Source of the DNA: Tubulanus polymorphus | Taxonomy: Eukaryota; Nemertea; Palaeonemertea; Tubulaniformes; Tubulanidae | Length of the DNA stretch: 64,000 bases | NCBI RefSeq assembly: GCF_964204645.1 | Contig: NC_134026.1 | Coordinates: 28,786,650-28,850,649 of the forward strand | Direction of reading: 5' to 3' | Shown: piece after piece, positions 20,801-63,234 of the stretch | Layout: each line of letters begins with the position of its first letter | Numbering within the stretch: position 1 is the first letter of the stretch | Made by a program: the position numbers and the translations under genes | The notes under the pieces: model-generated | The model's database searches: none | What the model saw: only the letters and a program-made list of their open reading frames with translations | What the model was told of the DNA's origin: nothing

Positions 20801-21632
20801 AATGAGTCTATTGAATGATACAGCATTTTTGCGTCTTTTTTCTCAAATAAAAGTTGATGTGGTGTGAACGGTGGAATTTATTGCGTGGATTATTATGGCA
20901 TTGGTTTCGGTGCTAATTCCTGAAAGATGGTAATCGCGATAACCGCTACCTGAGGGGTAAAAAGACTCATGTTCTTAGATCTTCCAGTTTGTGTTTAATG
21001 TCGAGGAAAATAGTAATGCTAGATTGCTCGCGATAGAAACCTGAGATGATTAATAGCCATTGGGACGGCGAGGGTTACAGATCGTGAAAACGGTTCCGAT
21101 TTTATCGCACGAAGACGAAAAGATGTCGGCTATCTATGGACACCGACACGCGTTTAGAAAAGACGTATTCCACACTTTGAGATGATTAACGATGATGATC
21201 CACAAGTCGCTAATGGTGGCAAGATAACTAATCGAGTGATCATTAATGACCTACGAGGCCAGATAGTTGCCCTTGTTATGCTGTAAACCTGTCGAAATAT
21301 AGTTACTCATTAATTCACTTGTGTCCAATTCCTCTGTATTCTGAGAATGATATGTATCATCATGGACTGATGGTATAATTAGTAATATAACGACATGGAA
21401 ATCAGGGCATGGACTGTAAATACAATAGCTCAGATGGATAGCATGTCTCAATTTTTGTTTTGCTTTTTTATTTACAGATGCAGTGGATAGTGACGTTTTA
21501 TCCAATATATGGCTGCAGGTTGTTGGCGTTTGTTCCGGAAAGTAATTGAGCCTTTGTGCGTCCGGGAATACAGGTATATACAACCACCTAATTGAATAGA
21601 TTGATACGTCGTGCGACCTTGACGCAGAGAAT
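11842..21632. other. Gene-poor intergenic region upstream of the NPF-type receptor
   Basis: No confident gene is seen over nearly 10 kb. It contains a short direct repeat (CACTCTGTT.. at 20301 and 20337, period 36 bp), a possible broken coding remnant at 19692-20236 listed separately, and simple (ATG/AAT)n sequence near 14755-14780. The 5' UTR and promoter of the receptor at 21633 should lie at its right edge, but no TATA-type signal is evident there. Confidence 0.45.
19692..20236. pseudogene. Possible decayed coding remnant, family unknown
   Basis: Two adjacent stretches read like protein but are interrupted. On the minus strand, about 19943-19692 gives about 80 residues including DVSNKDERFSGLEQADFK and PRDVINVVKQKQ. 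On the plus strand, about 19960-20236 gives two overlapping frames, including VTLINEKGTPRVPKENGVEV and, after a frame change, APFTIEEPGEREKNITFKE. Neither has a clear start or clean splice borders. They could be relics of a transposon protein or processed genes, or chance. I do not recognise a family. Confidence 0.22.
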
Positions 21633-22892
21633 ATGACGTCACTTGCTGATCTTTTAAAACAAAATAGTTCCGGAGGATTAAGGTTTAACTTCAGCGATGA
21701 AACAGCGATAGGAATATTTCTAGAAATGGACCAGCACCGACACTGGTTTGATAGAACCACAGAAATATTGCTAATTCTTGCTTATACTCTTTTGATAGTA
21801 TTTGGAGCCTCCGGTAATGGATTAGTGTGTTTTGTGGTGGCCAGAAATCCTCATATGCGGACACCGAGAAATATATTCATCATAAATCTTGCAATATCTG
21901 ATCTGACACTTTGTTTGTTTACACAGCCTTTTAATTTGGTAAAACTGCTTTTCAAAGAATGGGCACTAGGTGTATTTATGTGCAAGTTTGTGTCCATGGC
22001 GCAGGGGACAAATGTTTTCGTTTCGACGATTAGCATCACAGCCATTGCCTTAGATCGCTTCCAAGTAATCGTTTACCCGACTAAGGATAACATGAAGAAA
22101 GTCGGCGCCGCGGTTGCGTTAATTTGCATATGGTGGATTTCCCTCCTGATGGCCAGCCCATTACTGATATTCAGCCAAGTAGTACCATTTCCACCAAACA
22201 CTGGTCAAATAAAGCTCTACGATGTTTGTATCGAGAATCTAGACTTATCGTACGCAAAAGGATCGTATTCGATCGCTTCAATGATCGTTCAATACATCGT
22301 CCCGATCCTCATAGTTTCGATCGCGCATGCAAAAATTTGCAATAAACTCAAATACAGAATGGTTAGTTCGCAGATGTCCGGATCGTTGACGTCACCGAAT
22401 GCCATTCGAAAAAAAGAACGCGAAGCAAGACGCAAAAGAAGAACGAATATTCTTCTTTTAACGATAGCACTCGTGTTTGTATTGAGCTGGCTGCCAATTA
22501 ACATATTGAACATCTTATTGGAATACAAGCCCGATACTTATCGCTACTTGGATTCTAAACTTATGTTCGCTATCTGCCATCTTCTCGTTTTAAGCTCGGC
22601 GTGTACAAACCCTGTCGTTTACGGATGGTTGAATGAAAACTTCAGGAAGGAATTTGTCAGCGTATTATGTTGTTCATGTTGCCGGAGGCTTCAAAGGATG
22701 CTTAAATCGCGCGATTCGCCCGATCGTCGAGAAAATCGACAACAGGAACCACAACGTACGTGTAACAACCCGGGACCTCGTATGACTGATGTAGCTTATA
22801 CTTCGGCAAACACCAACGGTGCATCTTTGGTCGTTGTACTAGATAAACCAGCTCCCCTCGAAACTCAATCAGAAATCTGTCAGCCTGAATAA
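21633..22892 (+). CDS. NPFR: Neuropeptide F / NPY-type G protein-coupled receptor
   Basis: Intronless 419-aa class A GPCR. Seen: seven hydrophobic segments, with N-linked sites at N11 and N19 in the extracellular N-terminus. TM2 reads NLAISDLTLC. The TM3 end is ALDRFQVIVYPTK, with DRF in place of DRY. Disulfide cysteines are in FMCKF (top of TM3) and DVCIENL (ECL2). TM6 has SWLPINI and TM7 has NPVVYGWLNENFR. Cysteines after helix 8 (VLCCSCC) suggest palmitoylation. Known: the IVYPT motif after TM3, the loop-3 ERxxRRxKRTN-like stretch and the TM7 ending match arthropod NPF receptors closely. Those receptors bind amidated NPF peptides and usually couple to Gi/o, controlling feeding and arousal. 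Inference: a plasma-membrane receptor for NPF or an NPY-like peptide in neurons. The start is the first ATG of the frame; a consensus CRE palindrome overlaps it. Confidence 0.9.
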   Translation: MTSLADLLKQNSSGGLRFNFSDETAIGIFLEMDQHRHWFDRTTEILLILAYTLLIVFGASGNGLVCFVVARNPHMRTPRNIFIINLAISDLTLCLFTQPFNLVKLLFKEWALGVFMCKFVSMAQGTNVFVSTISITAIALDRFQVIVYPTKDNMKKVGAAVALICIWWISLLMASPLLIFSQVVPFPPNTGQIKLYDVCIENLDLSYAKGSYSIASMIVQYIVPILIVSIAHAKICNKLKYRMVSSQMSGSLTSPNAIRKKEREARRKRRTNILLLTIALVFVLSWLPINILNILLEYKPDTYRYLDSKLMFAICHLLVLSSACTNPVVYGWLNENFRKEFVSVLCCSCCRRLQRMLKSRDSPDRRENRQQEPQRTCNNPGPRMTDVAYTSANTNGASLVVVLDKPAPLETQSEICQPE

Positions 22893-26626: not shown

Positions 26627-29600
26627 ATGTCGTGGCTGATACGGAGCCGAAAGGCAAACCAAGTTTGCCCTAGCTCTAACGGCAGTGGTGCAAGTATACT
26701 ATCATCGGCCAGTTCTATGACTCCATCACAACTTGATGCAACTATATTAGACATGCTCAATGTATCCCATGACACCGGCAGATTTGTTAACATTTGCGAA
26801 GGTATGTTCTTTTTGCGTTAATACTCATTGAATCTTGTAAGTCACATAACCTAATTTTACATGTGAGTAAAAGATAATTCAAAACGCTTGAACCGTACCG
26901 TCAGGCACAGACATTAAGTTGTATGGGCCAAGATGTTCTAGAATGCTTTGGCTGGAGAAAAACTTGGTTCTTAATCTGAATTAATTCGTGTTGACTTTGT
27001 AGGTAATCCCCTGACAAGTAAAGGAAAAAGGATCCAGCTAATGAAAATGATAATGATTGCTATGGTTCCACTTGCTATATTGCTGGGTCTGACAGCTAAT
27101 GTATTTGCCGAAATGATTCTGAATCACAATCAGATTCAAGGGCTACGAAATGTTGTATATTTCAGTACGGAGGTTGGACACGTGCTCAATCAGGTTCAAA
27201 GAGAGCGTGATATGAGCGCCTTATACGTTAGCGTTATAGGACAAGAGGGAGGGGCTGAATCTAAGGCTCTATTGATGAAACAGTATCCAACTACCGATAT
27301 AGCTGTAGTTAATTTATCATACTGGCCCGCGGACGCTGTCCTGATTAAACGAAAATCTGAATTTCAAACAAGGGAAATGTTTCAAAACTATATCAACTTG
27401 CATAGATATAGTTTAGATTCATCAAATTCAACACTGACAGACGAATTGTCGTTTTATTCGGAAATTGTCAACGTCTTTCTCGAATGGCTTATCAAATCTG
27501 TCACCGAGGTCCCAGCCGGAAAACTATGGCAACACGTCGTCGCTTACTTTGAGATTCTCCAGTCAAAGGACAACTTCGGAATGGAGCGTGGGCTGGGTAC
27601 TATCTTTTTCACACAAGGCTACTTTGATCGTTTAGAGGACTATCTCAGCTTCTTAGAAAATCAAGATCAAGCAAATACAACTTTCGGATCAGCTCGTTAT
27701 TTCTCGCCACTCGTTGATAAATTCTACGAGCATGTCATCGCAAACAATGCAACTTTCAACTTATTGATTCAAACAATGAGAGCAGAAGTGCGAAGCAATA
27801 ACGCGTCGGAGGTCGGATCCATCGAAAGAGGGAAGTTTTGGCACGAGCTTATGTCTTTGTACTTGCAACATCTGCAAGAGACCCAAATGCAGCTTGGTAA
27901 TAGTATTCTGAGTTTACTAGATGCAGAACTGCAAGAAGATGAAATCAAGATGGCCATTATAGCGTCGATTTTCGCCCTTGTGATTATCATGTGTCCCATC
28001 ATTCTAAATGCAGTGTACGCACTGACTAGCGCCATTCAGAGTTATTCTCTAACATTGGCGGCCAGGTAAGTAACAGATTATATCTTCGTTTATATATTTG
28101 ATCAGTTAATTCATTTCTGAACAACGTCTTTTAAGGACCAAAGCTTTGAATCGAGAAAAAAGGCGCACAGATACACTTCTTTATCAGATGTTACCGAAAC
28201 AAGTGGCGGATCAGTTGAAACGGAATGAAATCGTCGACGCCGAAATCTATTCGGAAGTAACGATCTTCTTTTCTGATATTGTCGGCTTTACAGAAATCTC
28301 CGCGCGATGTTCTCCAATTCAGGTGCTAAACACAAAGAAATATAAATGGTTATAGATTGCTTACATTGAATCGTTAGTGATGATAATCTACATGTTTACA
28401 GGTGGTTAATATGCTCAACAGTTTATACACGTGTTTTGATCGAAGAATCGCTTTATATGATGTTTATAAGGTAGAAACAATTGGTGACGCATACATGGTT
28501 GTTTCAGGTAAAACCGTTGATCTTGTGGCATTTGAATTAAGTCGCTATTCATCCTTCATTGACTGTATTGCTCTTCTGATTTCAGGTTTACCGAACAGAA
28601 ATGGCCAGCAACATTCAACGGAAATTGCTACTATGGCGCTTGATCTTTTAGATCATATCAACCTGCTCGAAATACCGCATTTACCGGGGACGATCTTCCG
28701 TTTAAGAATCGGCTGTCATATGGGTAGATGTTCTTTGTTGAACCTATTCTTAATTACTTGGAGTATGGGTCTTTTGAATAAAAAATGGAAGGGCGAAGCG
28801 GAAAAAATAAAAAATGGTTTTATAGTCATTTAATGCAAGAGAACAGGGGAAAATAGGATTAAAGTTTTTACTAGTATTCGATTATTTTCGGAAGAAATTG
28901 TGGAAGGACTGCAGAAGAAAAGTAAACGTTTGCAAATTATAAGAACGATATACAAGAAAAATCTTTTTGAAAGCATTATGACGGAGGATTGGTTAAAAAT
29001 GTTTTTGGTGTCACACTGTCGTTTCGTTACGTATTGAACTGATAACTGTATGATATTGCAGGACCAGTTATCACGGGAGTGGTTGGTAAAAAGATGCCCA
29101 GATATTGTCTGTTTGGTGAAACTGTCAGTATTGCCTCAAAAATGGAAGCGCTCGGAAAACGTAAGTTCGATGTGAAACCTCAAAATCCACTCTGACTCCA
29201 GGTAATAGATATAATTCTACGCTTTTATTTTGTTGCAGCGTGTCAGGTCCATCTAAGTGAAAGTAGTTACCTGGCGCTCAATGCTGTTGGAGGATTCGTG
29301 ATGGTCAAACGTGAAGAAAACGTAGTGAAGGTAATCTTGATGATTAATGATTAAATTAAAGAGTTTTTTGAAAAACAAGACGAATACGTAGTTATTAAGT
29401 TAGCGTAACACCTTTCGCTTCTTATGCGTAGTAGCTGCGCATTGAGTGATTTTATGCTAAGATATTCACAGATTTACATATTGTTTGTTTTAAGGGTGAC
29501 CCGGTATTGGAAGATGCGTGGAGAGGTGAACAAGTGACGTACTGGTTGATGGATAGACAGGGAATGGCACGCAAACATGTACCTTCTTACAGCGACGATG

Positions 29601-29972
29601 AGGACTTTGAAAGTAAATTTCTTAATCTCGGTGTCGGATATTATGTTTTCAATAGGTATAGCTTATCACGGTGGCTGATTCGGGACGTGTCAATATTTTT
29701 TTTCAACCAAAAGCAAACTTTAAAAAGTTTGTTTTTGCGCGGTAATATTTATTTTTGCACGTTTTCGTGGGGGATGAGAATAATAATGACATGTCCCGAA
29801 TCAACCACCATAGCTTATTCATCTTTGTTTATTCATTTCTTTCGATTTAGATGGAAGTATCGGAGGCCCTGGCACCAAATACGCATCCTTACTGGGATAT
29901 GCTAAAGACACGATATCTACGACATCGAGGCCTTTGTCGTGCACGGGAAGTTCTGTCAGTGCTATCGAATGA
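26627..29972 (+). CDS. NIT-domain receptor guanylyl cyclase, tandem copy 1
   Basis: Nine exons join in phase: 26627-26801, 27003-28065, 28136-28322, 28402-28507, 28586-28723, 29062-29160, 29239-29330, 29495-29612 and 29851-29972 (stop TGA), giving 699 aa. Layout: cytoplasmic N-terminus, TM1 about 73-96, extracellular NIT-like region about 97-372 ([10 protein letters not shown] and [11 protein letters not shown]), TM2 about 375-398, linker helix ([19 protein letters not shown]), class III cyclase domain from about 450. Metal-binding D460 (FFSDIVGFT) and D504 are present, as are guanine-selecting E500 and C572 (MPRYCLFG). S579 and K583 replace the transition-state Asn and Arg. There is no kinase-homology domain. 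Known: NIT domains sense nitrate/nitrite in bacteria, and NIT-cyclases occur in some invertebrates. Inference: a plasma-membrane sensor controlling cGMP, probably with a partner subunit. Exons 1-8 pair one-to-one with copy 2; the choice of last donor (29612) and exon 9 (S/T-rich tail) is less certain. Confidence 0.88.
29667..29809. mobile_element. MITE in the last intron of NIT-cyclase copy 1, 8-9 bp TSD
   Basis: Inverted ends are GGTGGCTGATTCGGGACGTG and CATGTCCCGAATCAACCACC, flanked by a direct repeat ATAGCTTAT at 29658-29666 and 29810-29818. An 8-9 bp duplication suggests a hAT-like element. It is non-coding, 143 bp, and inserted 46 bases past the inferred end of exon 8. Confidence 0.75.
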
Positions 29973-30411
29973 CGTCAAACACCAAACCAATCAATCTACA
30001 AAAACAACTTGCTCGCAGTATAGACTATCCTTCACCCATACAGATACTGGATGATCTGATGTTTCTTTCATTTATCTATGAATTAATGCGAATTATTAAA
30101 TCCGATGTCTATTCTTTGATTTTTTTGTGATTGATTGGTTTGTATGTTATTTATCCAAGCCTATAATTGGGCTCGTTTTATGCTCGAACACAAGAGGATT
30201 GTTTCACGACATATTGAGATATAATTTGATTCATATGTTACATTATATACTATACTTTGTTTGTTGAACGTAAACGCACGTACCTGACACTCTTGGTGTA
30301 TTGATACCTGTAAAAAATGTAATATGGCCAGAAAATATCATAACCACTTGGCACTATTGTCAAGGATCAAAGTGTTGCATCGTGCTTTTAGATATTGTAC
30401 ACATTTCAAAA

Positions 30412-30417
30412 AATAAA
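30412..30417 (+). terminator. Candidate poly(A) signal for NIT-cyclase copy 1
   Basis: AATAAA about 440 bases after the inferred stop codon, in an A-rich stretch. Position fits a 3' UTR end, but AT-rich DNA makes chance matches common. Confidence 0.35.
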
Positions 30418-30893
30418 AAACCCGATTTATGTTATTAAATGGAGTGTTCTTTACGTCATCGGTTAATTTTTTCGGGGAATTGTAGTTGAATCAAGGATTG
30501 CTCGGAGGACAATTTCATCTATAAAATCAAGTTAATTTCGTAATTGAAAAGATCACACAGAATGGGAACAATCCACCAAAAAGATGAGCCCGCTCTCCAC
30601 TTTTGATGCTAAAAATGGTTAACCTTTGATGCGACAGGTAACTGGTAAGATGGAATTTGGAACACAGCGACAAGTAACCGTGCCTGCGTACCATCCACCA
30701 TTTGGCCAATTCGTTCTTATTACCAGGGAAGAGGTGATTATGATCAAATGACACGAAGTCATTAAAAATGAGAAAGTTATTATAAGTCACTAATCATAAT
30801 TTTCGCTTCGTAAAACTAGTGCTTCATAATGAGATGTGGATGACCATTGGAGAAATTCTATTCCGCGTTGTAACGATATATAGAAAATCCCAC

Positions 30894-30977
30894 ACTAATA
30901 ACGGATGAAGACCAAAAGGTTTCAAAATTTGGAGCTTACAGGAAAACTTTCTGGACTTCGTCTTCATCCGTTATAGT
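30894..30977. repeat. Short hairpin repeat, MITE-like
   Basis: TAACGGATGAAGAC at 30899 is mirrored by GTCTTCATCCGTTA ending near 30973, with about 48 bases of loop. It resembles a very small MITE. No clear target duplication. Confidence 0.5.
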
Positions 30978-31858
30978 AGCGATTAGCGTAGGATGGATGT
31001 TTGGTGGATGAAACGACTGTCGGATGAAACGACTATTTCAAATCATTTCCTACTAAAAGCAAAGTAAACATGATTATCTGATTAAACATGAACAATCAAA
31101 ACGATACTGGAGTGAGATGTAGCTAGCCTTGAATAGTTAGGGTGGATAAGAAGTAAAAATTGTACTATGAAATATACTATACGAATATACTATGGTAGTC
31201 AATGTTCAAATCTAAAATTTGAAATCAAATCCAAAATTCCTTTCAACTAGAGCATTTTTGACAGAGCTTATTGATTGTGTGTAACATTCTAGTTGCCTGG
31301 TCTAATGATTAGATTACAAAATTCTTAGATTCATTTTCAGTTTAGTTCAGGTGAAGGGTATTAGTGGACCTCCTAGGGCGACTAAATGGTGTCATTACAG
31401 GATATTTAATTAGTCTCACAGAGAATATCGTGTTACATTGTCTTGGTTACGGTTTCCGAAACAAAGCCATGTTATATCAAAATCATTCGGTGAACATCAA
31501 ACATGGATTTTCTATCGGGAAGACTGCAATATTTTAAACTAACAGATATTTCAACAATTTGGTGATACTCTTTGCGTAATAGGGTAAGCTACCACTTAAA
31601 TATTGCACGTTGTAACCTAGAAGAGAAATCAGTTTATCATCGTAATAGTTTTAAGCATAAAACAAGATAGAATTATAAAGATATCATACATGCTTACTCG
31701 ATTGTAATTATTACTACCAAAATACCGATGAAATAGATACGAATTATTTCAACATGATCGATTAATAAGTTAACGAAATAATTACAAGCTGATTTGAGTT
31801 TCGTACGCTGATTTCATCTCAATAATTTTAGATCGTGCTCAAGCTTCGAAGTACCACG

Positions 31859-33866
31859 ATGTCTTGGTTGATAAATAAAAACGTTAAGATCGCCCCGGGA
31901 CAAAAGGGGCTAAACGAATCGAAGCACTATGTTATGTCTTCGGTTGATTCATTATCACCGTCTGAGTTGGACGCAGCCGTAGTTGAACTATACCAGGTTT
32001 CACCGTCGAATTCAAACAGACTGCTCATATCATGCGAAGGTAAATTCTAATCATGAATAGCTCTGTATAGAATTTGACGAAAATTCATTTCGCTTCGTAA
32101 ATTGAAATCTCAGAATAATACTTTGCGTTGATGTATTTCCTTTGCATGTCGTGAAATTACCAGGCCAAAAACACTGAACTCATTCTCACCAATTATCTTT
32201 TTTTTAAATTTTGAATAGGAAATCCCCTAACCAAGACAGGCAAAAGATATCAACTAACAAAAATGTTTATGATAGCTATGGTTCCGTTAGCCATTCTACT
32301 AGCGTTAACGGCGAATGTTTTCTCCGATATGATTGAAACTCATAATCAACTATCCAGTTTACGAGAAGTGGTTTATTTCAGTACAGAAGTCGGAACTGTA
32401 TTGGATCAGGTTCAAAGGGAAAGAGATTTGAGCGCGTTATACGTTAGCGTTATAGGACAGGACGGAGGGGCCGAATCTAAGGCTCTATTGATGAAACAGT
32501 ATTCTGTTACAGATTCGGCCGTTGTTAATCTATCATATTGGCCCGCGGACGAGGTTTTGATAAATCGGAAAAGAGAATTTGAAACGGGTGACATGTTTCA
32601 GAATTATATTAATCTTCATAGGTATAGTTTGGACACTTCGAATACAACACTGACAGACGAATTGTCGTTCTATTCGGAAATTGTCAACGTCTTTCTCGAA
32701 TGGCTTATCAAATCTGTCACCGAGGTCCCAGCCGGAAAACTATGGCAACACGTCGTCGCTTACTTTGAGATAATTCAATCGAAGGACAACTTCGGAATGG
32801 AGCGTGGACTGGGCACAATTTTTTTCTCTCAGGGATACTTCGATCGTATCGACGACTATTTGAATTTCCTTGAAAATCAAGATCAAGCCAATGTAACGTT
32901 TGGTTCAGCGAGATATTTTTCACCGCTCGTCGATCAGTTGTTCGAACACGTTATCGAAAATAATGAAACTTTCAACCAAATCATCCAGAAAATGAGAGCA
33001 GAAGTGCGTAGCAATAACGCATCGGAACCAGGCTCTATAGAGCGTGGGAAATACTGGCATAAGCTAATGTCTTTGTATCTGCAACATCTTCAAGAAACAC
33101 AAATGCAACTTGGTAACATCATTTTGAGTTTACTGGACGCGGAACTGCGAGAAGACACGATAAAGATGGCAATCATAGCGACGATATTTGCATTGGTTAT
33201 CAGTATGTGCCCGATAATTCTCAATGCAGTTTATACGTTGACAACCGCAATTCAAAAATATTCATTGAGTCTGGCCACAAGGTATAATCTCTATTCCTAC
33301 TCTTTTAATATAGACAATTAAGAAAATATATGTTTCATTTAATTGCAGGGTTACGATAACTGTTTTTATAGTTTGTTTTTTTTTGATAGTATATCATAAC
33401 AATATTCTGATTATTATGATACAGGACAAAAGGACTTCGCACTGAAAAGAAACGCACTGATACTTTGCTTTATCAGATGTTGCCCCAACAAGTAGCTGAA
33501 CAGTTGAAACGGAGTGAGATCGTAGATCCTGAAACCTTTAATGAAGTCACTATATTTTTCTCAGATATCGAAGGTTTTACAAAAATATCTTCTAAAAGTT
33601 CACCGATACAGGTATGAATAACCCCGTCTTATATATTGTCACATTATTATTTCATTTCTATTTTGTTTCTTTACTCATCTTCTTACGCATTTTTAGGTTG
33701 TCAATATGCTGAATAATCTTTACACCTGCTTTGACGAACATATAGCTAAATACAACGTTTATAAAGTAGAAACGATTGGTGATGCGTATATGGTTGTCTC
33801 GGGTAAGTCGTCCGATTTTGTAGTTTTGCTGTGGGTTATTAATAAGTCTACGCATTATTTCTCTCA

Positions 33867-33903
<37 letters not shown>

Positions 33904-35407
33904 GGACTTCCAAATCGAACTAAATCTCACGAGCATTCTAAAGAAATTGGTTCCTTGGCATTAGTACTTCTCGATCACATCAACGTTCTAGAAATACCTC
34001 ATTTACCGGGGAAGATTTTCCGTCTGAGAATCGGTTGCCATACAGGTAATAACGTGCATTTTCTCCATACGTACCGTAATTAGATCTGGTGTAATGGATT
34101 CGCAATACTAAGATGACTCATTACATTATATTATTAGGGCCTGTGGTGACTGGAGTAGTTGGTAAGAAAATGCCTCGATACTGTTTGTTTGGAGAAACAG
34201 TGACAATCGCCTCAAAAATGGAAGCACTCGGAATGCGTACGTCAAACATAATCTATACCGGAGTTGTTTTCTCCTTATAGTTGACGAGTCTCCGTCATTA
34301 GATATTAGATAATCTAGAAAGGGACATTTCAGCAGCGCTTTAATTTTTTTTATTCCAGCTTGTCGAATACACGTGAGTCAAAGCTGCTACGAGTCGTTGT
34401 CGCTTCATGGTTCTTTCAAACTTACACAACGCACGGATATGATTTCAGCAGTAAGTAATTGTTCGAACCACTAATCAAATCGGATAGCAAAAAATGATAT
34501 AAAAAATCTTTACAAGCTTTTAGTCACAATATACGGAGGAGCATTGATCACGTCATTCTGTTTATTTTGTCCGTGTTGTGTCCAACTTCAATGATTTTTT
34601 TTATACAAGTCAATTTCTTCGTTTTCCGCCGGTAAGTTTCATGGTGAATAATTTAAGTGATTTGTAAATGAAGTAACCACCGCCGCTCGTGTGCACGCAA
34701 ATTTCATCATCCATAGACCGTAACACTCGCCGTAGTCTTATTTACATCTCCTTAGTTACGCAGTAAGCAAATACAAACCCATCCTCCCCCGGCAGGGATT
34801 CGAACCTGATGGCATCGAGATTGCCACGGCACGAAACCCTGCCATAATCAACCGTGTGCGCAGATACATGCGCAGTTCAGATGATGGGATTTTTAGCCAA
34901 TCAGAAATCCAGTTTTATTTTAGCCCGGGTTTTCCCATTTATAGTTCTTCCTTGAAATTTGCCTCAACGATTATACAACGAGCATTCTGATTGGTGCCGC
35001 CAGTTTTCGTTCGGAAAGCTGCGCATGTACCTGCGCACCCGGTCTACTGATGCAGGGGTTCGTGCCGTGGCTGAGTGTAGCGATGCCATCAGGTTCGAGT
35101 CCCTGCAGAGGGAGCATGATACAAACCGCACGGGTCCCCTGATACTTCATACAGTTCAGCACACGACTTTAATGCTTCACTCGTTGATTAATCAAACTTG
35201 AGAAGAAAATGTTTCAAAAGCAATGAAATTGACGATTTGATTTGCAGAAAAAATTACAAAATATTCAGATAAAGATGGATTTGTTTTTAGAAAGATATAT
35301 CTGATGCAATGGGAGCTGTTAGTAAAACTTACTGGTTAGAAGATATGGCCGGAATGGTATGGGTTTCTAAACCAGTTCCACTCGGTACTGAGGATCGTCA
35401 AATGTAA
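31859..35407 (+). CDS. NIT-domain receptor guanylyl cyclase, tandem copy 2
   Basis: Eight exons join in phase: 31859-32039, 32219-33281, 33425-33611, 33697-33802, 33905-34045, 34138-34236, 34359-34450 and 35291-35407 (stop TAA), giving 661 aa. Five internal exons have exactly the same length as in copy 1, so this is a tandem duplicate. TM1 is about 76-98; the NIT-like ectodomain contains [10 protein letters not shown] and [13 protein letters not shown]2 is about 377-400. The cyclase domain keeps metal-binding D462 (FFSDIEGFT) and D506, guanine-selecting E502, and C575 in MPRYCLFG. T582 and K586 stand where active cyclases have Asn and Arg, as in the alpha subunit of soluble guanylyl cyclase. 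The C-terminus lacks the S/T-rich tail of copy 1. Inference: membrane sensor and cGMP-forming subunit, probably in a heterodimer. The start is supported by the MSWLI motif shared with copy 1. Confidence 0.9.
33861..33903. repeat. (CT)n(TA)n microsatellite at an intron acceptor
   Basis: About 26 bases of CT repeat then about 17 of TA repeat end directly in the AG that precedes exon 5 of NIT-cyclase copy 2 (33905). The CT run occupies the place of the polypyrimidine tract. Confidence 0.9.
34780..35118. mobile_element. Foldback pair of tRNA-derived SINE-like sequences in intron 7 of copy 2
   Basis: The right arm (about 34972-35118) carries GTGCCGTGGCTGAGTG, like a tRNA A box, and GGTTCGAGTCCCTGC, like a B box. 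The left arm (about 34780-34910) holds the same on the other strand (GCAGGGATTCGAACC). The arms also share a GCGCATGTA..TGCGCAC segment and an AATCAGAA/TTCTGATT pair, so they form an imperfect long inverted repeat with about 60 bases of spacer. Not a functional tRNA: no acceptor stem or cloverleaf fits. Confidence 0.65.
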
Positions 35408-38298: not shown

Positions 38299-39648
38299 CT
38301 AGATTTGACAACTGTGTTGATGAATATCCGGATAAGATAAAGATTCTAACTTATCGTCATCTTTGTCCGGATTTGTTTGCATCGTATCTGGAGTCCCGTT
38401 ATCCTCAGACCTCCTCGTTGGATCTGGTGGTGGACTCGGCTGTTTATTTGCATTGTTGTTGCTGCGATGTGAATTTAACATCGGTAAATTCACTTGATGC
38501 ATGTGCAACCTGTCACCATTACACATGCGTCTTAGGGACGATGTAGATCTAGTAGTGCTCCAGCGATGTCGTCGGCCACTGCGATCGGAGCGTAACGCCT
38601 CGTGGCCCGGGTGTACGCGACGTTTCTTCTTTTTCGTCATACATCGTAAACATTTCATCACTTCTCCGCGAAACGTTTCGTTCATCCAGCAGTAGATGAA
38701 CGGGTTGAAACAGACGCTCGTCATCGCGATCCAATAACAGGAAAACAGAGCTTTCGGTCCGTGTCGGAAATCAGTCGTTGGTGGAAACCTGACCAGCAAA
38801 TAGTAAATATGTAGCGGTGCCCAACACATCGCAAATACCGCCACAACAACCATCAACATTTTAATCGTCTTTTTCTTCGTCCTTAAATGTATGATCTGTT
38901 GATCTTGCGTAACGTGGCCTAACGTCACTCGCATCCACAGTTTCTGCGCAATTCGTCCGTACGCCAGGGTTATAACAGCAAGAGGGATACAAAACTGTGT
39001 GAGGAATGTTCCCAGGAAAATATATCTTTCGAATTCGGCGTTCGGAAATGTTCTCGTGCAACGCTTTTGCTTTCCAACGAGCCAAACACCGGCTTGGACC
39101 TGACCGTGCCAAATACCATGGGGCAAAGCCATAGCACCGGCGAGCAACCACATAATTATAGTGATTGTGATCGCCCATCGGATGGATATTTTTGGTCTCA
39201 ACGGATAAATGATCACTTGGTATCGATCGATAGCGATACTGGTCAACGTAAAAGTCGACACGTACACGCTCAATGATTGGACAAAATTCATCACGTGACA
39301 CATGCCATCGCCGAATGGCCAATCATCGAGGATGTACCGCGCAATGTTGAATGGAATATTAAGGAGTGTTATCAATAAATCGGAACACGCTAAATTAGTA
39401 ATGAACATATTAGTGACAGTGTGCATTTGTCTATTCCGCACGATCACGTATATTACAAGTGAATTACCGAATATGGACACAAGAACAATCAGGCTAAACA
39501 CAATCGCCAAAGCCGAATTTTCCGGATTATTTTGTTTCGACATGCGTTGCATTACGCCGCTGAGGAACTCTGATAAGTTTCCATTTCTAAAAGTACCAAT
39601 CGAACCGTTGACACGATTCAGCGTGAAATTCAAAAGAGATAGATCCAT
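38299..39648 (-). CDS. GPR83: GPR83-like G protein-coupled receptor
   Basis: Intronless 449-aa class A GPCR. Seen: N-terminal glycosylation sites at N7, N14 and N24, and seven hydrophobic helices. TM2 reads SDLLITLLNIPFNIAR. Disulfide cysteines are in GDGMCHV (TM3) and QKRCTRTF (ECL2). The TM3 end is AIDRYQVIIYPLRPKISI, loop 3 has RTKKKTIKMLM, TM6 has CWAPLH and TM7 has NPFIYCWMNETFR. The tail is Arg/Ser/Pro-rich. Known: the ITLLN.PF, DR.QVI..PL.P.ISI and KKKTIKMLM stretches match vertebrate GPR83 throughout, and loop length also fits. GPR83 is a brain-enriched receptor with reported peptide ligands (the proSAAS peptide PEN, FAM237 peptides). Inference: plasma-membrane receptor for a neuropeptide. 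The first ATG has A at -3 and a CRE palindrome lies 27 bases upstream. Other NPY-like receptors are less likely. Confidence 0.88.
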   Translation of the reverse strand: MDLSLLNFTLNRVNGSIGTFRNGNLSEFLSGVMQRMSKQNNPENSALAIVFSLIVLVSIFGNSLVIYVIVRNRQMHTVTNMFITNLACSDLLITLLNIPFNIARYILDDWPFGDGMCHVMNFVQSLSVYVSTFTLTSIAIDRYQVIIYPLRPKISIRWAITITIIMWLLAGAMALPHGIWHGQVQAGVWLVGKQKRCTRTFPNAEFERYIFLGTFLTQFCIPLAVITLAYGRIAQKLWMRVTLGHVTQDQQIIHLRTKKKTIKMLMVVVAVFAMCWAPLHIYYLLVRFPPTTDFRHGPKALFSCYWIAMTSVCFNPFIYCWMNETFRGEVMKCLRCMTKKKKRRVHPGHEALRSDRSGRRHRWSTTRSTSSLRRMCNGDRLHMHQVNLPMLNSHRSNNNANKQPSPPPDPTRRSEDNGTPDTMQTNPDKDDDKLESLSYPDIHQHSCQI

Positions 39649-40954
39649 CTTTTCGCCGCGGAATTGGAATGTTGTGACGTCACGCCGTTATCTGTTCCAT
39701 TCGGTATATTGATCTGAAACGACATAAACGGATATTTCAGCTGGATTCGTCCTGTGTGAAAGAAATATTTTCGAAGGTGACAATTTTCTGACGATGCGTT
39801 AACCGTTGCAGATTTATCACATTCTAGGCGGAAAATTGACTGAATTGATATTACAGTTTTTCATTGAAGTGAAATCGACCAATTCTCGGCGTCGACATTT
39901 CCACATAAAAGTCCGTTATATCGCTACCCGTGCTATCTTTGTTAACAATTAAGTGACTCCTCCTTATTGGATATGCAAGATTTATGGAATCAATGTCTTT
40001 CCGGTAATAATGACCTTTTGCCTAAAATACATAAATAAATTGAAGTGGTTTTGCTTTGACATCGGAAAACGCGCTAGAAATCACTCAGTATATGAATGAT
40101 ATAATGAACGCTTCATTAGTGATTATATCTGATCACAGCTACGTACATGCTTTTTGTTGGCACCATATTCATTAGTGCTGATATTTCAAACAGTTACATT
40201 CAGTTTGCTATCAATCCGACAAAGTAAAACGTGAATATTCATGGTTGTTTTTCGATGAAATCATTAATTCGATGAGCTTCATTCAACGAATAAAAGAAAA
40301 TCATTCATGATAAAATGATTCACTGAATAATGTTGTCACTATTATTCAACGGCTGTAAAAATGCAACACAAATCAAGAATGTCAAAAACTGTCGGGTTTC
40401 TCCGATGGCTTTCTGGAGACAATGTTTTTTTTTCTATTTAAAAAAATGTATTATGTCCCAAGGACGCCTTCGCTGGTTCCTATTCATTTGGTTTCAAACG
40501 CTATGAGATGAAATATTGCCGATTTATTTCTGTGCCTCAGTAGTGTTCGTATTATCTCCATATTCATTTCTTTTGTCCGGATACATTAAACGGTGGAAAG
40601 GTTCGCGCCATGTCCGCAAGCTGACTCTCCCAGGATTAATGTCGGTTATAGATCATTGGAAAATACATTTCGAAGATAACATTCCGCAATTTAGACAAAT
40701 CGCTGCGGCACTTAAATGCCAGAGTTATTGGCCATTTGGTGTATGTTTAGACCAGTACTCGCAAAATACCGCGGCCATTTAGAAAGTATAACATCTACGT
40801 ATACGTGAGTTGGTATATCATATCAACATCTCGTTTTGATGAATTCACTTTCACGAAAGCGAATTAAGGCGCAATCCGAACTAATCGGAATTCGATCTTT
40901 TGTTGCATGATTTACGGCACCTTCTTTTCCCGATCCACCAGAAAATTGCCATTA

Positions 40955-55567: not shown

Positions 55568-57361
55568 TATGGTGGCTGATAAGGGCCATAGCGTAAAATT
55601 CCTGGTATGTAAATGAGGGCGCCAGAACGCCAGAACGCCAAAACGAAAAAAACCGTCCAATTTTCTCTAAAAGTTCGTTTTGGCGCGCCAAAACAAAGAA
55701 AATTCCGTTTTGGCGCCCCCGCCAAAACGAACTTTCATTTTGGCGCCCCCGCCAAAACGAACTTTCGTTTTGGCGCCCCCGCCAAAACAACGAAAAACGT
55801 CCAATTTTCTCTAAAAGTTCGTTTTGGCGCGCCAAAACAAAGAAAATTCCGTTTTGGCGCCCCCGCCAAAACGAACTTTCATTTTGGCGCCCCCGCCAAA
55901 ACGAACTTTCGTTTTGGCGCCCCCGCCAAAACAACGAAAAACGTCGAAATTTCTCTAAAAGTTCGTTTTGGCGCGCCAAAACAACGAATATTCCGTTTTG
56001 GCGCCCCCGCCAAAACGAACTTTCATTTTGGCGCCCCCGCCAAAACGAACTTTCGTTTTGGCGCCCCCGCCAAAACAACGAAAAACGTCGAAATTTCTCT
56101 AAAAGTTCGTTTTGGCGCGCCAAAACAACGAATATTCCGTTTTGGCGCCCCCGCCAAAACGAACTTTCATTTTGGCGCCCCCGCCAAAACGAACTTTCGT
56201 TTTGGCGCCCCCGCCAAAACAACGAAAAACGTCCAATTTTCTCTGAAAGTTCGTTTTGGCGCGCCAAAACAACGAATATCCCGTTTTGGCGCCCCCGCCA
56301 AAACGAACTTTCGTTTTGGCGCCCCCGCCAATACGAACTTTAAACCACGTAAAATAATTCTATATATACGTAAAATATTTTCATTTATGCAAATTTATGC
56401 AAATTACACACAAGATCAACGCGCCAATTTGAAAAATAATTTTACTGTGGTTGAATGCTTGTTTTGGCGGGGGCGCCAAAACGGAAATAACCGCGCCAAA
56501 ACGAACTTTTCTTTGTTTTGGCGCGCCAAAACGAACTTTCAGAGAAATTTCGACGTTTTTCGTTGTTTTGGCGGGGGCGCCAAAACGAAAGTTCGTTTTG
56601 GCGGGGGCGCCAAAATGAAAGTTCGTTTTGGCGGGGGCGCCAAAACGGATTTTTCTTTGTTTTGGCGCGCCAAAACGAACTTTTAGAGAAAATTGGACGT
56701 TTTTCGTTGTTTTGGCGGGGGCGCCAAAACGAAAGTTCGTTTTGGCGGGGGCGCCAAAATGAAAGTTCGTTTTGGCGGGGGCGCCAAAACGGAATTTTCT
56801 TTGTTTTGGCGCGCCAAAACGAACTTTTAGAGAAAATTGGACGTTTTTCGTTGTTTTGGCGGGGGCGCCAAAACGAAAGTTCGTTTTGGCGGGGGCGCCA
56901 AAATGAAAGTTCGTTTTGGCGGGGGCGCCAAAACGGAATTTTCTTTGTTTTGGCGCGCCAAAACGAACTTTTAGAGAAAATTGGACGTTTTTCGTTGTTT
57001 TGGCGGGGGCGCCAAAACGAAAGTTCGTTTTGGCGGGGGCGCCAAAATGAAAGTTCGTTTTGGCGGGGGCGCCAAAACGGAATATTCGTTGTTTTGGCGC
57101 GCCAAAACGAACTTTTAGAGAAAATTGGACGTTTTTCGTTGTTTTGGCGGGGGCGCCAAAACGAAAGTTCGTTTTGGCGGGGGCGCCAAAATGAAAGTTC
57201 GTTTTGGCGGGGGCGCCAAAACGGAATATTCGTTGTTTTGGCGCGCCAAAACGAACTTTTAGAGAAAATTGGACGTTTTTTTTCGTTTTGGCGTTCTGGC
57301 GTTCTGGCGCCCTCATTTACATACCAGGAATTTTACGCTATGGCCCTTATCAGCCACCATA
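55568..57361. mobile_element. 1.8-kb foldback DNA transposon built of 144-bp palindromic repeats, 6-bp TSD
   Basis: The ends are inverted: TATGGTGGCTGATAAGGG on the left, its complement on the right. AGGATC flanks both sides (55562-55567 and 57362-57367), a 6-bp target duplication. The inverted match continues through GCGTAAAATTCC and ATGAGGGCGCC. Inside, the left arm (to about 56340) has five and the right arm (from about 56457) six copies of a 144-bp unit. Each unit carries three GTTTTGGCG..CGCCAAAAC near-palindromes and one perfect GTTTTGGCGCGCCAAAAC. The AT-rich centre, about 56341-56456, is unique. Four open frames of 255-357 codons cross the arms on both strands only because the unit length is divisible by three and lacks stops. 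No transposase. Ends (TAYGG..GATAAGGG) and TSD length agree with the element at 11420, so they are probably related, IS3EU-like by recollection. Confidence 0.88.
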
Positions 57362-60766: not shown

Positions 60767-63234
60767 ATGGCGAGTGAAGTTCCAATCGCTAAAAGTTGTC
60801 CGAAATGCGACCTTCCCGACCCACTGAAACGTAACAAAAGCGTTGATGTATCTTCCTATGAGCTTCCAGGAGCTTACACTTATGAGGGTGTGCCATTAGC
60901 ATATTTCACTAAGGTGGAACACATCGAGAAAATCAGAAACCTTCATCTTAGAGAAGATGATGTAATCGTTGCTTCGTATCCAAAAACAGGTAATTTTTCC
61001 CGAGTTTTTCAAAGAATGTTCGGTTAAATGACATTTTGATTTATCATAGTCAATTTTTCAGAAAATGCCAGTTTTATTTTTTTTTCTCCATTATGATAAT
61101 AGTGGTTGCTGTATGTGTAGATGTTGGCGTTATCCTCAGTTGATTGCGTTGGTAATCCCCCATCAGCGCTATCACTTAACCGTGCCCAACTAAAAAACAT
61201 TGATCCCTGTACGCACGCTCACGAATTCCATCCATCATCGCGGATTAAAGGGTGATGTAAGAATAGCGGCCCTGGAAAAGACAATTTACGTAAATCAAAC
61301 GTAGACTAACAAATCTGTAGTGGATTTATACAATGTACGTCACTGAGTCGGGATGGGGTTTTGGGATCGGGATTCGATCCTTGTTTTGGTTCCGATCGTA
61401 CTTTCACTATTCGATCCTGGTGGGTCTGTGTGAAATGGAATTTCAATTCGTGACAAGATCTGAGATTAAAGAGTCATAATTTGCCATATGCATATATGTA
61501 TTGTTAGATGGTGATGATGCTCCTCGTGTATCTCCTCGATTCTCGCGCATCTCTTCGATATTCTTCTCGATACGCCGCATATCAAGGCAATTACAGATAG
61601 CTGTCAGTGTGACAAGTCTTCTGGAAGCCTACGGGGAACATCGTATTGACAAACCAGTGCAAATAGAATGAGAATCACGTCGCATCCAATTCCACATGTT
61701 ACCGTATCGAATACACCTTCACATCTTGGCAATTTTCAGCCTGTAAAGAATCCCATACATCCAAACGTTTTTAAAGGTTATTTTGTATGAGAAGCATCAT
61801 GCGATTTAACTACACGAGTCGGTGAAGCGATTATTTCCACCATCGGACGTGTTTTATAAAAACCCCGATATCAGATTAGTTCACTAAAACTTCCTATTAC
61901 ATGTCCATGGTATACATAAAATAGGCCTCGCGCAGTTAAAGCGCTTAATCATCGTTATTGGTCACGAGTAGTCACGAGATTGTCAAGTAATCATAATGAC
62001 ACAGATAGTCGCTCAGTTCTAAAAGTGAGATATATTGATATATTACAATATATACCGGTTGTAATCATGATTACAGGCAATCTATCAACTTAGTCCTGTG
62101 ATATTGATATGTTGAGGCGCAACCAGTGGAAAATGTCTTATAGTCGTTACTACCTGAATGAACAGTTCTGCGCGGTTATGGCTGTCCCCAAAAGGTGTCC
62201 AAGGTCTAGTGGAGGGGTTTGTGAAGTTTGGGGTAGTTTGGGTGTGTGGACATGCTTCTTCTTCCTGCTTAATTCCTGAAATAATTCACATTTCAAGATA
62301 ATGCATGGAATAACAGATCAAGTGAATGAAAAAAAAAACATTATTTCGCATGACTTGATATCCGATGTCTTAAATTACACCTTTCCAATGTGGACGTGGG
62401 GGAGGTGGGTCAAAATGTTAGCAATTTTGTGTGGACGTCTTTTATGGACAGCCCCTGACGTATTTCTTTTATTTTGTAGGTACCACATTGACGCAAGAGA
62501 TCACGTGGTTGATTCGAAACAATGCCGATACTGAAGCAGCGAGCAAGAGTTACAACTACGTCAGAGTACCCTATCTGGAAAACTGTTTTCCACCAGAAAG
62601 TGATGGTATCCTTCTACTGGAACAGCTCACGCCTCCTAGACATCTTAAAACCCATTTACCGTGGCATCTGTGTCCTCAGAAGTCCATTATAGATGGCAAG
62701 CATACGAAGGCCATTTATGTAATGAGAAATCCGAAGGATGCTCTGGTGTCTTATTACTATTTCTACTGTTCGTGCGCTTCATTCGGTCAGTTCCCAGGAA
62801 CCTGGAGCGACTTTTTCGAGTTGTTCTTGATGGACAAATTGTGTTATGGGAACATTTTAGATCACTACGTTGGCTGGTGGGCGATGCGCGATAATCCGAA
62901 TATTCTCCTGTTGAAATATGAAGATATCCTGAAAGACCATGCCGGGCAGATTCGGCATATCGGAAAATTTCTTGGGTATGATCTATCTGACGATACAGTA
63001 GAAACAATCAGAAATTTCACTACATTCAAGAAAATGAGCAAGAATCCGATGACGAACTACACCAGTATACCCGAAGATATAGATACAAGCATTGTACCAT
63101 TTATGAGAAAAGGCCAAGTCGGAGATTGGAAGAATCATTTTACAGTAGCGCAGAATGAACTGATGGATATGATCATTAATAAGAAATTAGCCGGGACAGG
63201 GCTCACTTTTGAGTACGATTCCACGAACAACTAA
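60767..63234 (+). CDS. Cytosolic sulfotransferase (SULT family)
   Basis: Two exons, 60767-60989 and 62480-63234, join at a phase-1 GT-AG intron inside the PAPS-binding loop and give 325 aa, slightly longer at the N-terminus than the usual 290-300. Seen: the 5'-phosphosulfate loop YPKTGTTL at 71-78, catalytic H133 in LKTHLPW with K131, the 3'-phosphate motif YVMRNPKDALVSYY at 154-167 (R157 and S165), RKGQVGDWK at 284-292, and the dimerisation motif K292-T296-V297-E301. All key residues are present, so it is probably active. Known: these soluble enzymes transfer sulfate from PAPS to hydroxyl or amine groups of small molecules such as phenols, steroids and xenobiotics. The substrate cannot be told from sequence. 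No signal peptide or membrane segment. Confidence 0.92.
60990..62479 (+). other. Intron of the sulfotransferase gene
   Basis: 1490-base GT-AG intron (donor GGTAATTT, acceptor TATTTTGTAGG). It contains TA-rich stretches and no second coding exon that I can support. Confidence 0.8.

Follow-up and report, generated by a model that had tools for sequence, protein, structure and literature searches.

Nitrogen-oxide sensing by cyclases with a NIT domain was proposed in 2006 for insects and sea urchins (PMC1592074), and by 2020 such NIT-cyclases were known from placozoans and many bilaterian phyla (PMC7400543). An earlier sequence-only reading of the locus studied here, which held that they had been noted in only a few invertebrates, was thus too narrow. 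In 2023, the annelid NIT guanylyl cyclases NIT-GC1 and NIT-GC2 were tied to NO signalling, with NO feedback in Platynereis photoreceptors reported to depend on NIT-GC1 (PMC10584369). The NIT-GC class and the idea that it senses nitrogen oxides are therefore already published. On the sensor side, the motif G-x-x-R comprises nitrate-binding residues, and the bacterial NasR keeps both arginines and has glutamine for one glycine (PMC8199190), with its R176 assigned to the ligand pocket (PMC7496416). The PA4520 NIT domain, also bacterial, failed to bind either nitrate or nitrite (PMC6381276). On the output side, the class III active site draws on two chains, one providing the metal Asp pair and the triphosphate Arg, and the other the ribose Asn, the transition-state Arg, and the triphosphate Lys (PMC2576301). 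In human soluble guanylyl cyclase (sGC) these residues are divided between the alpha and beta chains, and homodimers of either chain are inactive (PMC3591389). ODR-1/DAF-11 provides one precedent for an obligate heterodimeric receptor cyclase (PMC5225109). Here, we analysed a tandem pair of NIT-GC genes (W1 and W2) in a 64,000-nt stretch of the Tubulanus polymorphus genome (the window), together with their paralogs in the same genome.

Gene models and domain layout of the tandem pair

Positions 26627-35407 of the window are the exact span of two intact gene models, both on the forward strand, to which all coordinates of the pair refer, and with GT-AG introns throughout. Gene 1 (W1; 26627..29972) has nine exons (26627-26801, 27003-28065, 28136-28322, 28402-28507, 28586-28723, 29062-29160, 29239-29330, 29495-29612, and 29851-29972) encoding 699 amino acids. 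Gene 2 (W2; 31859..35407) has eight (31859-32039, 32219-33281, 33425-33611, 33697-33802, 33905-34045, 34138-34236, 34359-34450, and 35291-35407) encoding 661 amino acids. The start codons are 5232 bases apart, as the spacing of about 5.2 kb given by the sequence-only reading implied. The matching exon structure that it also claimed holds for exons 1-7, which have the same phase and nearly the same length, but not for the last exons (9 vs 8 exons in total). The models derive from genomic sequence; for W1, manual modelling and a separate spliced alignment gave the same nine exons, while for W2 the two agree for exons 1-6 and the start of exon 7. The 3' boundary of exon 7 in W2, together with the final exon, was placed by hand according to splice sites and the stop codon. 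Pseudogene status was ruled out by the open frames, the canonical splice sites, and a low pN against a saturated pS. Purifying selection was evident on the cyclase domains, with pN at 0.136 and pS at 0.771.

Identity between the two genes is 74% for the proteins and 70% for the coding DNA, and 79 of 190 fourfold sites match. Within the NIT exon (exon 2), a tract of 101 nt (27455..27555) is identical in W1 and W2, compared with 50 nt for the longest identical run in 5000 codon shuffles, and it is probably the product of gene conversion inside the sensor domain. Inverted repeats were seen in both last introns. That of W1 (29670-29809; 57-nt arms, 72%) is perhaps a small transposable element, and the nested one of W2 (34780-35118), which carries a tRNA B-box-like GGTTCGA and in which ARAGORN found no tRNA, is possibly a tRNA-derived or fold-back element. 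Elsewhere in the window, intronless rhodopsin-type GPCR genes (PF00001) flank the cyclase pair at 21600-22889 on the forward and 38302-39687 on the reverse strand, and a sulfotransferase-like open frame (PF00685, E=1.9e-68) lies at 62422-63231 on the forward strand. A large palindrome at 55568-57361 (774-nt arms, 97% complementary, with 144-bp tandem units) is open in several frames on both strands, and its long open reading frames are therefore artefacts.

Both proteins begin with a cytoplasmic N-terminus lacking a signal peptide. An extracellular NIT domain lies between TM1 and TM2, and a short coiled-coil linker then leads into the guanylyl cyclase domain. Hydropathy analysis gave exactly two transmembrane segments per protein, with about 281 residues between them (TM1 at aa 75-93, 27050..27106, and TM2 at aa 375-393, 27950..28006, in W1; TM1 at aa 77-95, 32266..32322, and TM2 at aa 377-395, 33166..33222, in W2). 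The intervening region contains five N-glycosylation sequons common to both proteins and no cysteine. Pfam matches to NIT (PF08376) were over the cut-off (W1, aa 119-360, 27182..27907, E=1.1e-21; W2, aa 121-360, 32398..33117, E=2e-20), and Guanylate_cyc (PF00211) was matched in the C-terminal part (W1, aa 447-639, 28236..29551, E=3.9e-60; W2, aa 449-620, 33525..34441, E=1.3e-57; introns included in both spans). A match to HNOBA was confined to its coiled-coil end (helix 395-440; E=4.7e-8 and 1.1e-7), which is the signalling helix common to cyclases and no haem domain. Kinase, ANF, and HNOB domains had no Pfam match in either protein. The domain identity and order proposed from the letters, including the ectodomain of about 280 residues and the absence of kinase-homology and ANF-type domains, were thus borne out by profile search and hydropathy, with evidence far beyond chance. 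W1 and W2 combine the features of animal NIT-GCs, namely a NIT domain between two transmembrane segments, a signalling helix, no kinase-homology domain, and a class III cyclase of the membrane branch. An AlphaFold2 model of TM1-NIT-TM2 from both window copies had a pLDDT of 41 and was discarded.

Division of catalytic residues and its descent

The cyclase domains of W1 and W2 keep the metal Asp pair (D460 and D504 in W1; D462 and D506 in W2), the triphosphate Arg, and the GTP-specifying Glu and Cys (E500/C572 and E502/C575), the last two marking guanylyl rather than adenylyl cyclases. Both are without the ribose Asn, the transition-state Arg, and the KGKG loop, which we take, by adenylyl cyclase C2, to carry the triphosphate Lys. 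In place of the catalytic Asn...Arg, W1 has S579...K583 (29127..29141) and W2 has T582...K586 (34203..34217), the same pair as in human sGC alpha-1. Neither protein therefore holds all of D, D, N, R, and KGKG in one chain, as a complete (homodimeric) cyclase does, a feature that the sequence-only reading had overlooked.

We then compared all 12 NIT-cyclase genes of the genome, using the conserved cores alone for the other paralogs, whose 5' and 3' ends are approximate. They comprised four A-type, four B-type, and four complete genes. The A-type genes (W1, W2, L014, and L017) keep D, D, and R and have lost N, R, and the KGKG Lys; the Lys-loop is altered in all of them and is 8 residues longer in W1. 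The B-type genes keep N, R, and K, with D1 replaced by G in L020 and L021, and D1 by G, D2 by S, and R by Q in L022 and L023. L015, L016, L018, and L019 carry all of D, D, N, and R and count as complete, although L018 has E for the first K of KGKG. None of the 12 genes has losses on both sides, and L020-L023 provide the complementary paralogs expected of a heterodimeric cyclase. W2 and L014 are identical to human sGC alpha-1 at 6/6 scored residues, and L020 and L021 to the sGC beta of this genome, likewise at 6/6, while the canonical receptor cyclases examined in this genome retain N..R. Half of the NIT-GC genes (6/12) are located on contig C2, including a convergent B-type pair (L022/L023, at 1.01 Mb), and a divergent pair of the complete type (L015/L016) is located on C7 at 2.08 Mb. 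Two soluble-type cyclases, L081 and L082, have odd residues (Y for D1; T..Q and N for C) and are perhaps further half-site or inactive subunits.

The cyclase tree was inferred with the six catalytic columns removed. NIT-GCs were placed with membrane (receptor) cyclases, apart from the soluble ones (100/99); W1, W2, and L014 formed a clade (100/99), as did the four B-type genes (98/99), and the ectodomain tree recovered the same A and B clades. AU tests rejected shared descent of the A-type with sGC alpha (p=5.8e-5) and of the B-type with sGC beta (p=0.0086), and did not reject a single NIT clade (p=0.43). An assignment of W1 and W2 to sGC alpha was likewise dismissed on the former p value and the lack of an HNOB match. 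The trees and AU tests together place the origin of the split inside the NIT-GCs, parallel to and independent of that in sGC. L017 probably lost N..R separately (p=0.037), and purifying selection was found in both B-type pairs. With about two loss events on the tree for A and one for B, the complementarity by itself is statistically not strong.

Predicted ligand and subunit pairing

A profile of nine ectodomains from this genome had NasR (4akk) as its sole match in the PDB (E=1.5e-5). In the profile alignment, the Q-x-x-R and G-x-x-R of W1 and W2 are opposite Q-C-E-R and G-Q-E-R of NasR. These motifs are Q124-x-x-R127 (27197..27208) and G251-x-x-R254 (27578..27589, opposite the motif ending in R176) in W1, and Q126-x-x-R129 and G253-x-x-R256 (within 32398..33117) in W2. 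Arginine is kept at both ligand positions in 12/12 paralogs, with C replacing the motif glycine in L023 and K beside the second arginine in L022. Because both NasR ligand motifs are present, sensing of nitrate/nitrite (oxyanions) by the W1 and W2 ectodomains is plausible, although the ligand may differ given the behaviour of PA4520. That the ectodomain senses another small molecule or a protein, outside NO biology, would be compatible with the pairing proposed below and gains from the only remote resemblance of animal NIT domains to NasR. We nevertheless consider it rather doubtful, as the NasR motifs are intact in W1 and W2, both arginines persist in every paralog, and an NO response needs annelid NIT-GC1 (PMC10584369). 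A scan of bacterial genomes with the W1 exon as query returned no relative. The T. polymorphus genome also contains two clusters of NOS genes and yields nine matches to HNOB (HNOB-type soluble cyclases), so that the NIT family exists alongside both NO chemistry and the classical NO receptors.

Given that half of the catalytic residues are missing from each protein, W1 or W2 alone is unlikely to make cGMP. On the residue pattern of this one genome, we infer that W1 and W2 are probably alpha-like half-site subunits of transmembrane NIT-GC heterodimers. They would contribute the metal Asp pair and the triphosphate Arg to the active site, and the opposite subunit would have to contribute the ribose Asn, the transition-state Arg, and the triphosphate Lys. 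Production of cGMP would then most likely require W1 or W2 to join a complementary NIT-GC, drawn either from the beta-like L020-L023 or from the complete set. The trigger would likely be a small nitrogen oxyanion or NO product in the two-arginine NIT pocket, with the signal passing as a helix movement via TM1/TM2 and then the coiled coil.

Two other readings of the same residues deserve consideration. W1 and W2 could be ordinary homodimeric NIT-GCs in which Ser/Thr and Lys replace Asn/Arg well enough to make cGMP alone; the remaining active-site residues, E and C included, are all kept, the Arg to Lys change is conservative, the genes are under strong purifying selection, and the substitutes might preserve some homodimer activity. 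We regard this as unlikely, because the triphosphate Lys-loop is changed in every A-type gene, with the 8 extra residues in W1, and because homodimers of human sGC alpha-1, which matches W2 at the six scored residues, show no activity (PMC3591389). The absence of half of the catalytic residues would also suit catalytically dead decoys or dominant-negative receptors, which bind ligand or sequester complete NIT-GC subunits. Yet purifying selection has left the metal Asp pair, the Arg, and the base residues in place, and the genome holds mirror-image partners for which a decoy would have no use, which makes this the least probable account, and a very improbable one. The half-site reading is therefore the one we favour. 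A broader proposal, for which we see about even chances, is that animals evolved a second, transmembrane nitrogen-oxide-to-cGMP system with alpha-like and beta-like NIT-GC subunits that independently reached an sGC-like split, in which mixing of four A-type, four B-type, and four complete subunits would give combinatorial extracellular sensors.

Comparison with known systems

Many animal phyla have NIT-GCs, which are candidates for extracellular reception of NO oxidation products. If many of them are half-site proteins, expressing or knocking out one gene at a time could produce false negatives. The split, if true, would be another independent division of a cyclase active site over two chains or domains after those of sGC, transmembrane adenylyl cyclase, and ODR-1/DAF-11, and subunit mixing could explain the presence of two NIT-GCs in the annelid photoreceptor.

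W1 and W2 resemble NasR (4akk) in the NIT fold family and the aligned Q-x-x-R and G-x-x-R motifs, but NasR is a soluble one-component RNA-binding protein with an ANTAR output and no membrane spans. ODR-1/DAF-11 of C. elegans (PMC5225109) is like the proposed pairing an obligate membrane heterodimer with a single catalytic site formed from both monomers; however, it has the ordinary receptor-cyclase layout with a kinase-homology domain, by the review's general description, and no NIT domain, and it is a nematode-only case. sGC shows the same residue division (alpha D, D, E, C, T, K; beta G, D, E, C, N, R) and a coiled coil ahead of the cyclase, but is soluble, uses a haem H-NOX sensor, and is separated from the NIT-GCs in the tree (100/99), joint clades being rejected. 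The closest systems are the animal NIT-GCs themselves (PMC1592074, PMC7400543, PMC10073611, and PMC10584369), which share the TM-NIT-TM-cyclase order, the extracellular NIT domain, the signalling helix, the lack of a kinase-homology domain, and large paralog sets per genome. The passages of these papers compared here do not mention an A/B split of the active site, and the division of catalytic residues between NIT-GC paralogs appears to be the new element of this locus.
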